Below are positions 1,212 through 6,454 of a stretch of 40,598 nt of DNA, piece by piece. The position numbers and the translations under genes are program-made. Below the pieces are notes generated by a model that worked only from the letters and a program-made list of their open reading frames with translations, was not told the origin of the DNA and ran no database searches. The stretch covers positions 1-40,598 of IMG/VR virus record IMGVR_UViG_3300038465_000049; one strand, given 5' to 3'. Each line of letters opens with the position of its first letter. Position 1 is the first letter of the stretch. This stretch comes from a virus.

Positions 1212-1246
1212 ATTTTAGTCGGTTGAGCAAACTAACGACATTTAAA

Positions 1247-1296
1247 CCAACATCTTATCTCTAAAGGAAAACGTCATACCGTTAGACCACAGGCGG
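1247..1296 (-). tRNA. 5' half of permuted/split tRNA candidate B, with pairing flank
   Basis: The minus strand from 1296 has acceptor CCGCCTG, TG at positions 8-9, a D arm GTC-TAACGGTAT-GAC with the usual A14, GG and A21, then G26. No T arm or matching 3' acceptor strand follows. Instead the acceptor pairs 7/7 (one T-G) with CGGGCGG at 1386-1380, which lies upstream in the same transcript and carries CCA. The sequence after the D arm (CTTTA 1266-1262, AGAT 1255-1252, GTTGG 1251-1247) pairs with TAAAG (1410-1406), ATCT (1420-1417) and CCAAC (1426-1422), which flank that 3' half. The anticodon is not clear. A contiguous TTTTC-CTTTAGA-GATAA arm is also drawable, with one mismatch. Confidence 0.55.
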
Positions 1297-1301
1297 ATAT
1301 T

Positions 1302-1375
1302 TGGAGACTGTCAGAATCGAACTGACACCACGCTCATTGCAAGTGAGCATCGCTAACCTTAGAACATGAGCCCCC
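1302..1375 (-). tRNA. tRNA-Ala (anticodon TGC)
   Basis: A 74-nt cloverleaf without encoded CCA. Acceptor GGGGGCT (1375-1369) pairs with AGTCTCC (1309-1303) using two G-T pairs, and the discriminator is A. The anticodon arm GCTCA-CTTGCAA-TGAGC is perfect with anticodon TGC. The T arm GTCAG-TTCGATT-CTGAC is canonical. The D arm is weak: TGTT/AGCG with wobbles and one extra linker base. Its 5' end abuts the CCA of the upstream 3' half (candidate B) with no spacer. It sits between the two halves of candidate B. Confidence 0.8.
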
Positions 1376-1426
1376 TGGCCCGCCCGCTGGGATTTGAACC
1401 CAGATCTTTAATACGCAGATTGTTGG
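1376..1426 (-). tRNA. 3' half of permuted/split tRNA candidate B, with pairing flank
   Basis: Reading the minus strand, a perfect T arm CTGGG-TTCAAAT-CCCAG (1403-1387) is followed by acceptor strand CGGGCGG, discriminator G and encoded CCA (1378-1376). Nothing upstream supplies a D arm or a 5' acceptor strand. The matching CCGCCTG strand lies about 80 nt downstream, beyond the complete tRNA-Ala. The sequence upstream of the T arm (TAAAG, ATCT, CCAAC) pairs with the downstream flank of that 5' half: 14 base pairs, interrupted by one 6x6 internal loop and one bulged A. The variable region would be only 2 nt if TAAAG were the anticodon stem, so the fold is not fully canonical. Confidence 0.55.
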
Positions 1427-1462
1427 TGCTTGAGATAGTATCTCTTGGACTTAACTTTAACT

Positions 1463-1610
1463 TTTCAGGAGAACTTGAACTTACTTGGGTGATAGCGCCT
1501 TATCCATTTTGGCTACTCCCCCGTATGGTGGGAGAGGCGGGACTTGAACCACGCAATTACTATCTTAGACCCGGTTGAACTTTTAACTTAAACTGTCAAC
1601 TTACCTGAAA
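1463..1610 (-). tRNA. Circularly permuted tRNA candidate A (3' half, TAC linker, 5' half)
   Basis: On the minus strand a 3' half comes first: GATAG (1564-1560), TAATT, a T arm GCG(T)GG-TTCAAGT-CCCGC with one bulged T, acceptor strand CTCTCCC, A73 and CCA (1528-1526). After only TAC, a 5' half follows: acceptor GGGGGAG (1522-1516), TA, D arm GCC-AAAATGGATAA-GGC, G26 and CTATC (1495-1491). The acceptor strands pair 7/7 with one G-T. CTATC/GATAG gives a perfect 5-bp anticodon stem with normal spacing (1 nt before, 5-nt variable loop). Flanks extend the pairing: ACCC (1490-1487) with GGGT (1572-1569), and CCTGAAA (1469-1463) with TTTCAGG (1610-1604). No canonical T33 anticodon loop is encoded contiguously, so the identity is unknown. 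Confidence 0.6.
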
Positions 1611-1614
1611 TTCA

Positions 1615-1643
1615 ATAATACAACATCTATTGTTTTTTGCCAA
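1615..1643 (-). promoter_or_regulatory. Promoter of the tRNA cluster
   Basis: Minus-strand TTGGCA (1643-1638), 17-bp spacer, TATTAT (1620-1615). The spacer contains the AACAATA...TTGTTGTAT-like core shared with the promoters at 2420 and 6850. It overlaps the last codons of the DUF7873-like gene. Transcription would start near 1609, at the 5' edge of the TTTCAGG strand that pairs with 1469-1463. Confidence 0.6.
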
Positions 1644-2388
1644 GCACGAAATCGAAGATTGCAGATCCCAATTTACGCTCAACAACAATGGCGCCGTTGG
1701 CACGCTCTCGGGCCTGCTTCACGGCATCAACTAACAGATTGACGCGTTGCCATAATGCCAGCTTGTCTGTCACGGAAATAGCCGAAGTTGTCTTGACTGT
1801 TTCCCACGTGCCGATGATCACATCTTCAACAACCGTTTTTACTTGCGCGGGATGGTCCTTGGTAGCCTCGTACATCACGAGTGCTTTCTCGACCTTCTTC
1901 GTGCGCGAAACCTTCTCAGGCGCAGTTTGATGAATAAAAGGATTGTTTGGCGCAATTGACCAGTTTTCCGCTGCATCTAACACTGGAATCGCAGAAATGA
2001 ATGTACGAAGATCGGTCAATTCCTTTTCAAGAAACAGCAATGTGGTCGCTGGCAACTCGCTGGCGATGACCTCATCATCAATAATGATGTCGGCGCGAGC
2101 ACCTGCATTCGTTAAGTCTTTACTGAGTTCAAGGTCAAACACCTCCTTGCGCAGTCCAATATATTGACCGAGCATTTCTGGTGCGAACGCTTGAATCTTC
2201 TTGTTATCAGGCGGAAACATTTCAGACGATTCCGTCAACGGTATCCAGCGTTTGTGATGACCATTGAACATGTCGGGCTTTTTAAGTACGTGCTGCATCT
2301 CATCAATCTTTGCGTAAGAGCGTGTTTTCACACCTTTTTCTATAGCAAGAATTTCATGCAACTTTTTAGATTTAACTTGAGTAGACAT
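1627..2388 (-). CDS. DUF7873-like phage protein
   Basis: A 253-residue protein that I recognise as related to the DUF7873 family found in phages and some bacteria, whose function is unknown. Seen features: N-terminal 'KLHEILAIEKG', a central 'DLTNAGARADIIIDDEVIASELPAT' region, then the family block 'VMYEATKDHPAQVKTVVED' near residues 174-192, and a C-terminal 'VDAVKQARERANG' helix. The length is normal for the family. The start has a GGAGATGAG ribosome site. It is driven by the promoter at 2420-2449, and its end overlaps the tRNA promoter. Confidence 0.75.
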   Translation of the reverse strand: MSTQVKSKKLHEILAIEKGVKTRSYAKIDEMQHVLKKPDMFNGHHKRWIPLTESSEMFPPDNKKIQAFAPEMLGQYIGLRKEVFDLELSKDLTNAGARADIIIDDEVIASELPATTLLFLEKELTDLRTFISAIPVLDAAENWSIAPNNPFIHQTAPEKVSRTKKVEKALVMYEATKDHPAQVKTVVEDVIIGTWETVKTTSAISVTDKLALWQRVNLLVDAVKQARERANGAIVVERKLGSAIFDFVLGKKQ

Positions 2389-3187: not shown

Positions 3188-6100
3188 CTATGATTCAAAC
3201 TGCGGATTGTAATCCTCGCCACGAAGTCCAAAAGTTGAAGCGACTGCATTCAAACAAGTCATTTCCTGCGGAGCGCCGATCTCGATTTCATTTTTGTCAC
3301 TTAGCCACATTGGGCGACATTCAGGATGGATTTCAAGAAAGTAATCCTTGATGCTGCCATCCGGTTCTGGCGTGCTATTTTTAACATGCAGCATTGTGAG
3401 CGTCTCTTCAGTGCCTGGAATATTTTTTTGATAAAGTACACGCGGGGCGCCTAATTTATCAACATCGCGATGCAATACAGTAGCTCCGCCTTCTGTTATA
3501 TATCGCCCAACCCCAAAGCGCTCTAACATTACCCGTTTAATTTCTTGATTGCCTTCTTTGTCGATAAGAGCAACTGAGATTTTTTCGGGATTCGTAATAA
3601 TCCAACTCAATTCGTCAGAAATACTAACACCATGCCAAAAAAATAAAGACCAACCATCACGCCATTGATGAGAGGGGCCGTTGTCACAATGCGGTCTATT
3701 CGCATCATCCATTTTTATAAATCGCGGGAAGTCGGAAACCATACAAAATTCGGGGTGTATATATCGATATCCCCCATGAATAGCCGCTTGCTCCCACGCT
3801 GCGTATTTTTCATGAGCAGGCAATTGCAAGCCAAGAATATCCCGAGCAGCAGTTAGATAACAATCCCAAGCTCCCCACATATTGCCACCAGAATATGGTC
3901 CCGTCCATCGAGTTACACATCCAACCATCACCTCAAATACCCATTTATTTGATCCCGCCATTTGTTGGGCGAGTTTGCGAGCCCAACCCTTTTTAGGATT
4001 CTTAACGGTCGCGTCGTATGTTGCGGCGCGTGTCGCGTCGCGTGTTGCGGCGCTTGTTGCGGCGTCTGTCGCGGCGCGTGTCGCGTCGAGTGTCGCGTCG
4101 CTTGTCGCATCGTATGTTGCGTCGTCTGTCGCGTCGTCTGTCGCGTATGTCGCGGCGTATGTCGCGGCGTCTGTCGCGGCGCTTGTCGCGTCGCTTGTCG
4201 CGTCGCGTGTCGCGGCGCGTGTCGCGGCGAGTGTCGCGTCGTATGTTGCGTCGTCTGTCGCGTCGTATGTTGCGTATGTTGCGGCGCGTGTCGCGGCGTC
4301 TGTCGCGGCGCGTGTCGCGTCGTCTGTCGCGGCGCTTGTCGCGGCGCTTGTCGCGTCGTATGTTGCGGCGCGTGTTGCGGCGCTTGTCGCGTCGCTTGTC
4401 GCGTCGAGTGTTGCGGCGCTTGTCGCGGCGCTTGTCGCGTCGTATGTTGCGGCGCGTGTTGCGGCGAGTGTTGCGACGCTTGTCGCGGCGTCTGTCGCGT
4501 CGTATGTTGCGTATGTTGCGGCGCGTGTTGCGGCGTATGTTGCGTCGTCTGTCGCGGCGTATGCGGCGCTTGTCGCGGCGCGTGTCGCGGCGAGTGTCGC
4601 GGCGCTTGTTGCGGCGTCTGTCGCGGCGTATGCGGCGCTTGTCGCGGCGCGTGTCGCGGCGAGTGTTGCGTCGAGTGTTGCGGCGTCTGTCGCGGCGTAT
4701 GTTGCGGCGTCTGTCGCGACGAGTGTCGCGTCGTATGTTGCGTCGCGTGTTGCGGCGCTTGTCGCGGCGAGTGTCGCGTCGTATGTCGCGGCGTCTGTCG
4801 CGGCGAGTGTCGCGGCGTATGTTGCGTCGCGTGTTGCGGCGCGTGTTGCGTCGCTTGTCGCGTCGTATGTTGCGTCGTATGTTGCGGCGCTTGTTGCGGC
4901 GCGTGTTGCGTCGAGTGTTGCGGCGAGTGTCGCGTCGAGTGTTGCGGCGCTTGTCGCGGCGCTTGTCGCGTCGTATGTTGCGGCGCGTGCTGCGGCGTCT
5001 GTCGCGGCGCGTGTTGCGGCGAGTGTTGCGTCGCTTGTCGCGTCGTATGTTGCGGCGCGTGTTGCGGCGCGTGTTGCGACGCTTGTCGCGGCGTCTGTCG
5101 CGTCGTATGTTGCGTATGTTGCGTCGAGTGTCGCGTCGCGTGCTGCGGCGCTTGTTGCGTCGAGTGTTGCGGCGTCTGTCGCGTCGCTTGTCGCGTCGAG
5201 TGTTGCGGCGCGTGTTGCGGCGTCTGTCGCGTCGTATGTTGCGGCGCGTGTCGCGTCGCGTGTTGCGGCGTCTGTTGCGGCGCGTGTTGCGTCGAGTGTT
5301 GCGGCGAGTGTCGCGTCGAGTGTTGCGGCGCTTGTCGCGGCGTCTGTTGCGGCGTATGCGTCGTATGTCGCGTCGCGTGTTGCGGCGCGTGTTGCGTCGA
5401 GTGTTGCGTCGCTTGTCGCGTCGTATGTTGCGTCGTATGTTGCGGCGCGTGTTGCGGCGTCTGTCGCGTCGCTTGTTGCGTCGTGTGTTGCGGCGCTTGT
5501 CGCGGCGTCTGTCGCGACGTCTGTCGCGGCGTATGTTGCGTCGAGTGTCGCGGCGAGTGTCGCGTCGAGTGTTGCGGCGCTTGTTGCGTCGCGTGTCGCG
5601 TCGCGTGTTGCGGCGCTTGTCGCGTCGCTTGTCGCGTCGTATGTTGCGGCGCGTGTCGCGTCGCGTGTTGCGGCGCTTGTCGCGTCGCTTGTCGCGTCGT
5701 ATGTTGCGGCGCGTGTTGCGTCGAGTGTTGCGGCGTCTGTCGCGTCGTATGTTGCGTCGTATGTTGCGGCGTGTGTTGCGGCGCGTGTCGCGGCGTCTGT
5801 CGCGTCGTATGTTGCGTCGTATGCTGCGGCGTCTGTCGCGTCGTATGTTGCGTCGTATGTTGCGTCGTATGCTGCGGCGTCTGTCGCGTCGTATGTCGCG
5901 TCGAGTGTTGCGGCGCTTGTCGCGTCGCGTGTTGCGGCGCTTGTCGCGTCGCTTGTCGCGTCGTATGTTGCGGCGCGTGTCGCGGCGCTTGTTGCGGCGC
6001 GTGTTGCGTCGTATGCTGCGGCGTCTGTCGCGACGCTTGTCGCGGCGTATGTTGCGTCGCGTGTTGCGGCGCGTGTTGCGTCGCTTGTCGCGTCGCTTGT

Positions 6101-6454
6101 CGCGTCGTATGTTGCGGCGCGTGTTGCGGCGCGTGCTGCGGCGCTTGTCGCGTCGAGTGTTGTAATATTTCCAGTTTTTCTAGCTTGCCAGATAGCGGCG
6201 GCAAAGCCTCCCGCGACCGCCATCACTAAAGGGCTTGGAACAATTACCACTCGCGGTGCTTTTAAATTCGCAGTCTTATACAAAGCTTTGATGGCAGGCA
6301 CTATAAATTCGGGTTGAATAGGTTCCGTTCTTAAAATTCGTCCAGTCCACAATTTAACATGTTCGGCCATCAATCGCCTTTCATCGTCGGTAAGACCACC
6401 GCCTGCAAACGAGGAGGTGCGAACTATACCGGTCTTATTTACTGTCGATGTCAT
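3188..6454 (-). CDS. DUF6745-type protein split by a giant four-residue repeat (1088 aa)
   Basis: Residues about 20-98 ('LTDDERRLMAEHVKLW', 'AIKALYKTANLKAPRVV', 'PSPLVMAVAGG') and about 819-1088 match my memory of DUF6745 proteins. The C-terminal part has 'WHGVSISDEL' near 940, 'IKRVMLERFGVGRYI', 'VLHRDVDKLG', 'LHVKNSTPEPDGS' and 'DYFLEIHPECRPMW'. Function of the family is unknown. Between the two parts, residues about 99-816 are a Thr-X-(Ala/Asp)-Ala repeat of about 180 units, with X mainly Tyr, Arg, Ser, Leu or Asp. Such proteins are normally a few hundred residues long, so the insertion roughly triples the length. All irregular units differ by multiples of three bases, keeping the frame. 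The next gene upstream is a small 'EVTGHAHAI' protein that I associate with DUF6745 genes. Confidence 0.75.
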   Translation of the reverse strand: MTSTVNKTGIVRTSSFAGGGLTDDERRLMAEHVKLWTGRILRTEPIQPEFIVPAIKALYKTANLKAPRVVIVPSPLVMAVAGGFAAAIWQARKTGNITTLDATSAAARAATRAATYDATSDATSDATRAATRDATYAATSVATDAAAYDATRAATSAATRAATYDATSDATSAATRDATSAATLDATYDATDAAAYDATYDATYDATDAAAYDATYDATDAATRAATHAATYDATYDATDAATLDATRAATYDATSDATSAATRDATRAATYDATSDATSAATRDATRDATSAATLDATLAATLDATYAATDVATDAATSAATHDATSDATDAATRAATYDATYDATSDATLDATRAATRDATYDAYAATDAATSAATLDATLAATLDATRAATDAATRDATRAATYDATDAATRAATLDATSDATDAATLDATSAAARDATLDATYATYDATDAATSVATRAATRAATYDATSDATLAATRAATDAAARAATYDATSAATSAATLDATLAATLDATRAATSAATYDATYDATSDATRAATRDATYAATLAATDAATYDATLAATSAATRDATYDATLVATDAATYAATDAATLDATLAATRAATSAAYAATDAATSAATLAATRAATSAAYAATDDATYAATRAATYATYDATDAATSVATLAATRAATYDATSAATSAATLDATSDATSAATRAATYDATSAATSAATDDATRAATDAATRAATYATYDATDDATYDATLAATRAATRDATSDATSAATDAATYAATYATDDATDDATYDATSDATLDATRAATDAATSAATRDATRAATYDATVKNPKKGWARKLAQQMAGSNKWVFEVMVGCVTRWTGPYSGGNMWGAWDCYLTAARDILGLQLPAHEKYAAWEQAAIHGGYRYIHPEFCMVSDFPRFIKMDDANRPHCDNGPSHQWRDGWSLFFWHGVSISDELSWIITNPEKISVALIDKEGNQEIKRVMLERFGVGRYITEGGATVLHRDVDKLGAPRVLYQKNIPGTEETLTMLHVKNSTPEPDGSIKDYFLEIHPECRPMWLSDKNEIEIGAPQEMTCLNAVASTFGLRGEDYNPQFES
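4009..6163. repeat. 12-bp tandem array, about 180 units, in frame
   Basis: On the plus strand the unit is GTYGCGKCGNNT. Only four positions vary: Y is synonymous in the minus-strand protein, K decides Ala (GCC) or Asp (GAC), and NN sets the X codon (TAC, CGC, AGC, CTC, GAC, rarely CAC). The array is far richer in CpG than the rest of the window. A few units lack 3 or 9 bases, always preserving the minus-strand frame. No stop codon occurs through the array in any of the alternative frames I followed. Confidence 0.9.

Follow-up and report, generated by a model that had tools for sequence, protein, structure and literature searches.

YrlA RNAs are tRNA mimics in which the basal stem binds Rsr and the tRNA-like domain binds PNPase (PMC8394870). 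They carry a permuted T-, acceptor- and D-arm domain on a basal stem built from both RNA ends. Their genes, frequently two to a locus, adjoin that of one protein, and this kind of mimicry has so far been tied to Ro60. Other molecules of similar layout are the circularly permuted tRNA genes of red and green algae and Thermofilum, and permuted two-piece transfer-messenger RNA (tmRNA). Here we analyse a 40,598-nucleotide viral sequence (positions 1 to 40,598 of IMG/VR record IMGVR_UViG_3300038465_000049; hereafter the window), in which two such elements, RNA A and RNA B, lie directly downstream of a DUF7873 gene. Computational comparison reveals their fold, its covariation, a near-invariable linkage to DUF7873 and a likeness to YrlA, and RNA A is likely the first of two noncoding RNAs of an apparently new class of YrlA-like, tRNA-mimicking RNA partnered by DUF7873.

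1627..2388, minus strand: gene for a DUF7873 (PF25283) protein of 253 amino acids, immediately upstream of the RNAs (Pfam E = 4e-83)
1435..1609, minus strand: RNA A (type A) including its basal arms; the ends are approximate, estimated from an alignment of 33 homologues and pair counts
1526..1564, minus strand: RNA A 3′ half (GATAG, variable loop, T-arm with bulged U, acceptor CTCTCCC, A73, CCA)
1491..1522, minus strand: RNA A 5′ half (acceptor GGGGGAG, D-arm, CTATC)

RNA A has a permuted tRNA-like core

As the preliminary description had stated, a 3′ half with CCA precedes a 5′ half by three bases (1564-1491, minus strand). The 3′ half runs from GATAG (1564-1560) and TAATT (1559-1555) through the T-arm GCGuGG/TTCAAGT/CCCGC (1554-1537; five base pairs and a one-base bulge) to the acceptor strand CTCTCCC (1536-1530), A73 (1529) and CCA (1528-1526). 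Beyond the spacer TAC (1525-1523), the 5′ half follows with GGGGGAG (1522-1516), TA, the D-arm (1513-1497), G and CTATC (1495-1491). RNA A contains every part of a tRNA except the anticodon loop: the acceptor strands pair at 7/7 positions, including one G-U, and the anticodon stem GATAG/CTATC at 5/5, both as first described. Neither ARAGORN nor the Rfam tRNA model called a tRNA here. In a permuted-tRNA scanner of our own design, which scores acceptor, T-arm, D-arm and anticodon stem, RNA A reached 22.2, whereas nothing in shuffled sequence (4.9 Mb) scored above 18.0. Of 200 shuffles of the RNA, only 2 equalled or surpassed its folding (z = -2.5).

Scanning viral contigs with the single DUF7873 protein of the window, or with exact DNA patterns, yielded no useful relatives; a looser DNA pattern returned 65 stretches, with a clear permuted match only in the one from contig G001. 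This single close relative was reached via the portal protein (71% identity). Its element A (L001) has the acceptor TCGGCCC/GGGCTGG and the anticodon stem GGGAA/TTCCC and keeps the T-stem bulge, so that both stems differ from those of the window with compensation, several pairs being altered on both sides. Element B lies just downstream, and both its acceptor (CATCGGG/CCCGATG) and its anticodon stem (ACAGT/ACTGT) are perfect. The halves covary instead of varying independently, and a search for an ordinary tRNA of which either half of RNA A might be a remnant found none; these were the two tests set beforehand.

The element had originally been taken for a circularly permuted tRNA gene. That view survives in that the RNA is permuted and tRNA-like and its halves covary, but not in the sense of a tRNA gene of the algal or archaeal type. 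Those genes likewise place the 3′ half first, with a complete acceptor stem and a possible CCA, whereas here no anticodon can be reconstructed, no bulge-helix-bulge common to the homologues was seen by eye, basal helices are conserved and the hosts are bacteria and phages. Closure of the anticodon loop by cutting and ligation, giving a decoding tRNA, would account for the permuted order, the full acceptor and anticodon stems and the CCA, and UCUAA precedes both GATAG in the window and GGGAA in G001. However, the loop with T33 that had been tentatively proposed from such a join was not borne out: about 35 elements and two alignments gave no loop, and no U33 to either side of the open junction, that was consistent among them. 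The flanks of homologues are conserved as extended basal helices with internal loops, as in YrlA Y RNAs, not as a removable spacer. GGGT/ACCC with flanking bulges, found when bulge-helix-bulge motifs were looked for by eye, is present in the window and absent from G001, and RtcB was found in neither the window nor G001, both of which are fragments. Because no anticodon loop assembles consistently, this route to a decoding tRNA is very unlikely, and RNA A is probably not a decoding tRNA. A group I intron or permuted intron-exon arrangement was rejected on inspection, the flanks being too short and the splice-site bases not common to homologues.

The RNAs accompany DUF7873 genes in bacteria and phages

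The homologue search in viral sequences that had been suggested at the outset found permuted RNAs at most viral DUF7873 loci: the scanner together with R1, a covariance model of the type B RNA, detected them in at least 71 of 79, and two of the others end at a contig edge. R1 recovered RNAs in most scanner-negative viral loci; in genome scans, a two-sequence alignment found nothing, whereas one of 28 sequences found the RNAs. Named phages with RNAs at DUF7873 have Arthrobacter, Rhodococcus, Gordonia, Klebsiella, Rhizobium, Vibrio and cyanobacteria as hosts. In Klebsiella phage FBKp24 (L102), a permuted element lies at 4054-4148, and its 3′ half overlaps an annotated "tRNA-Sup-TTA" (4012-4091), which looks like a misannotated tRNA mimic.

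The permuted RNAs are not phage-specific, as they also follow DUF7873 in bacterial chromosomes. The 80 bacterial loci analysed were taken as the best among over 581 relatives and not drawn at random. All 98 scanner matches scoring at least 19 lay 0-700 nucleotides (nt) downstream of DUF7873 and on its strand; they came from 71 of the loci, and the remaining nine held full-length R1 matches of 55-111 bits, bringing the total to 80/80. A DUF7873 locus with permuted RNAs carries one or two of them, and the pairing spans bacteria of several phyla, from Myxococcales to Streptomyces, plus many phages. Comparison of neighbourhoods identified DUF7873 as the sole gene common to the loci compared, with no other conserved genes there except generic families and frames antisense to DUF7873.

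A less biased sample comprised 118 genomes of one class, that of a Streptomyces genome. DUF7873 occurred in nine of them, and full-length R1 matches of 67-121 bits occurred in the same nine, adjoining the gene; none of the 109 genomes lacking DUF7873 had a high-scoring full-length match, the next-best matches reaching at most 55 bits. By our own arithmetic, which assumes random placement and ignores relatedness, exact 9/9 agreement would arise by chance about once in 10^13.

Covariation extends into the basal helices

From 44 type B RNAs, RNAalifold recovered the T-arm, the acceptor and the D-arm unprompted, and with them a pair of basal helices, H1 and H2. Since the sequences had been selected on acceptor, T, D and anticodon pairing, covariation in those stems is partly built in; H1 and H2 had no role in the selection. 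Double-sided changes were seen in 14/14 pairs of type B H1 and H2, which are 83% and 77% paired, and the whole type B structure is 87% paired compared with 58% in shuffled and 39-48% in slid controls. Conserved internal loops place TATCRA opposite TTAAACGYCG, with an inner strand resembling TTAGATCTAA, and look like protein sites.

In type A RNAs (33 sequences) the basal stem is longer and imperfect, and it is less well supported than in type B. The covariation check proposed in the preliminary description for the anticodon stem and the flank helices was borne out for the anticodon stem and for the type B basal helices, and less so for those of type A. The bases of the outer helix described earlier, TTTCAGG/CCTGAAA (1610-1604/1469-1463), do occur in the window, but 33 homologues have a consensus in which the flanks pair in another register. 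An outer pairing GGAGCG/CGCTCC, considered as a type A pseudoknot, was not carried through the sequence set.

Taken with the linkage, these data bear on whether the halves are merely adjacent by chance or are decayed tandem tRNAs. The window does hold a tRNA cluster, tandem tRNAs can imitate the order, and some weak core matches of R1 are ordinary tRNA pairs. Such an origin is nevertheless almost certainly wrong, as it is contradicted by the 80-locus linkage, the type B covariation and the 118-genome sample, by the compensatory changes between the window and G001, by shuffled DNA never scoring as high, and by the conserved position of the RNAs next to DUF7873 in bacteria ranging from Myxococcales to Streptomyces and in phages.

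A YrlA-like core with a different basal part and partner gene

The Rfam YrlA model (RF02553) aligned over its full length to the RNA A region with 20.5 bits in a permissive scan. The RNAs compared with it missed its gathering score of 69, mostly at 20-40 bits and at best 40.3. Whether they are Ro60-bound YrlA Y RNAs in the strict sense is a fair question, given the shared permuted topology, the basal stem from both ends and this sub-cutoff alignment, and TROVE (Ro60) is encoded away from the DUF7873 locus in 12/16 DUF7873 genomes and in 9/12 genomes examined. Yet the window record has no TROVE match, none of the DUF7873 loci compared contains a Ro60 gene, the TROVE and DUF7873 loci share no sequence in the 12 genomes with both, and four of the 16 genomes (G005, G008, G009 and G017) have strong R1 matches and no TROVE match. 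In the 16 genomes, the sole high-scoring full-length R1 match was at the DUF7873 locus, with several lower, mostly core-only matches beside TROVE; five genomes of the 118-genome sample gave the same pattern, and the Ro60-linked RNAs scored about 55 bits or less on R1, mostly in the core. An identity with Ro60-bound YrlA is accordingly improbable. With the high-scoring full-length R1 matches at DUF7873 and the lower, mostly core-only ones at TROVE, the two groups of RNAs have a tRNA-like core in common and differ in basal part and partner. The type B basal loops TATCRA/TTAAACGYCG further set the DUF7873-linked RNAs apart from YrlA.

The N73-CCA end and the acceptor loop

Of 164 distinct elements, 63 have CCA right after N73, where chance would give about 1/64 and where 2 of about 17 Ro60-linked RNAs examined have it; N73 is almost never C in higher-scoring elements. 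As CCA is equally common with acceptor loops of at least 10 nt (25/60) and of 7 nt (24/52), it is tied to the stem and not to the loop. This pattern suggests that the N73-CCA end is functional, perhaps a real 3′ end, and hints, without proving it, at an opening of the acceptor loop by enzymes of tRNA processing.

If RNase P and 3′-end enzymes cut the RNA in this loop, the product would be a tRNA-like molecule in two pieces with a CCA end, joined through its anticodon and basal stems. It may be charged with an amino acid, which for type A would be leucine. We regard this as a possible but doubtful outcome. The position of a whole tRNA-Ala in the acceptor loop of RNA B in the window would fit it, as would the type A D-arms, which resemble those of tRNA-Leu (30 of the 33 ordinary tRNAs with such D-arms at these loci are Leu), and the mostly A identity of type A position 73. 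E. coli leucyl-tRNA synthetase (LeuRS) is known not to require the anticodon. On the other hand, about 60% of elements have no CCA, the loops cluster at 7-8 nt as for an uncut hairpin, the scanner introduces a small bias by rewarding CCA in its choice of register, YrlA is known as an intact RNA, and no sign of processing is visible from sequence alone. Permuted tmRNA similarly opposes a CCA end and a 5′ end across a potentially removable loop; the present RNAs differ in their full D-stem, and neither a tag reading frame nor pseudoknots were seen. No tmRNA matched in Rfam at the gathering score, and ARAGORN found none in the window.

Two-piece cutting and a DUF7873 partnership can be true together. 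The full combination, with DUF7873 as the core of an undescribed Ro60-independent ribonucleoprotein whose permuted RNAs are opened at the acceptor loop into two-piece CCA-ended molecules, those of type A leucine-charged, seems unlikely.

A proposed DUF7873 ribonucleoprotein

For the preferred reading, that of tRNA-mimicking RNAs partnered by DUF7873, we infer that RNAs A and B are transcribed downstream of the DUF7873 gene. Each contains a permuted tRNA-like domain, which comprises the T-arm, an acceptor stem that ends in N73 and often carries CCA, and the D-arm. An anticodon-like stem closes this domain, and beyond that stem the two ends of the RNA pair in covarying basal helices. DUF7873 would bind the conserved basal part, as Ro60 does on the YrlA basal stem, and the tRNA-like domain would dock on a tRNA-handling partner, candidates being PNPase, which takes this place in the Ro60 machine, an enzyme that modifies or cuts tRNA and, for type A, LeuRS. 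Most likely, such a complex would work like the Ro60-YrlA complex.

The window protein matches PF25283 with 279.2 bits, above the cutoff of 27 bits, and its best AlphaFold2 model had a predicted local distance difference test (pLDDT) score of 92.7, with the five models spread over 67-93. PDB searches by sequence and fold returned nothing convincing (best fold match E = 0.02; template modelling score below 0.25), there was no PHROG, NCBIfam or PADLOC match, and no resemblance to Ro60 or to RNA ligase appeared in sequence and fold searches.

Several points weigh against a DUF7873-RNA complex. The protein has no recognisable RNA-binding fold and no fold match in the PDB. Adjacency could instead mean that the RNA regulates DUF7873 expression, or something else. 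In the window itself, only 11/17 pairs of RNA A fit the type A basal consensus, and RNA B is atypical in its 3-bp anticodon stem and inserted tRNA.

The RNA family appears to be undescribed and unannotated; a literature search that covered few subscription papers returned nothing about DUF7873 or phage permuted tRNAs. YrlA-type architecture recurs here with an unrelated, uncharacterised protein, giving a first functional lead for DUF7873, and culturable species are now available for asking what tRNA mimicry is for.

RNA B, the candidate promoter and other features

1615..1643, minus strand: candidate promoter of sigma-70-like type for RNA A, located where the DUF7873 gene ends, by consensus match only
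1228..1439, minus strand: RNA B (type B), interrupted by a tRNA insertion, from a covariance-model match and helix positions
1376..1411, minus strand: RNA B 3′ half (TTAAA, GAT, T-arm CTGGG/CCCAG, acceptor CGGGCGG, G73, CCA)
1302..1375, minus strand: complete tRNA-Ala(TGC), inserted after the CCA of RNA B and ahead of its 5′ half (ARAGORN, as 1302-1374)
1267..1296, minus strand: RNA B 5′ half (acceptor CCGCCTG, D-arm, TTTTC)

The candidate promoter combines TTGGCA (1643-1638) and TATTAT (1620-1615) at 17 bp, matching the consensus at 10/12 positions, where shuffles of the same region gave a mean of 1.2 promoter-like matches; a transcript start near 1609, as predicted earlier, is reasonable given this match.

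R1 gave a full-length match of 39.1 bits in the RNA B region (1363-1228). The RNA B acceptor CGGGCGG/CCGCCTG pairs 7/7 with one G-U, the basal helix ACCAACA (1427-1421)/TGTTGGT (1252-1246) is perfect, and the conserved loops are TATCTCAA (1437-1430) and TTTAAATGTCG (1246-1236). The tRNA-Ala(TGC), whose own acceptor GGGGGCT/AGTCTCC pairs 7/7, occupies the position of the acceptor loop. Because the anticodon stem of RNA B has only about 3 bp, this copy may be decaying.

Elsewhere, genome G095 (C2:367230-367371; L296) carries an orphan full-length R1 match of 51.8 bits, with neither DUF7873 nor TROVE found in that genome, and a third partner protein is possible. About a dozen tandem tRNA-mimic-like matches, mostly core only, lie in G016 (C2:20760-26220) and may be a tRNA array or a mimic array. 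In G001, a small protein adjoining RNAs (L005:3511-4128) has a DxSxS motif that by eye suggests a vWA domain, a domain that Ro60 has, and the tRNA-Ala and tRNA-Ile genes (L001:558-698) overlap by 7 nt. In the window, 3188-6454 encodes a 1088-amino-acid protein with DUF6745 at its C-terminus, and long open frames in other frames suggest repetitive sequence.
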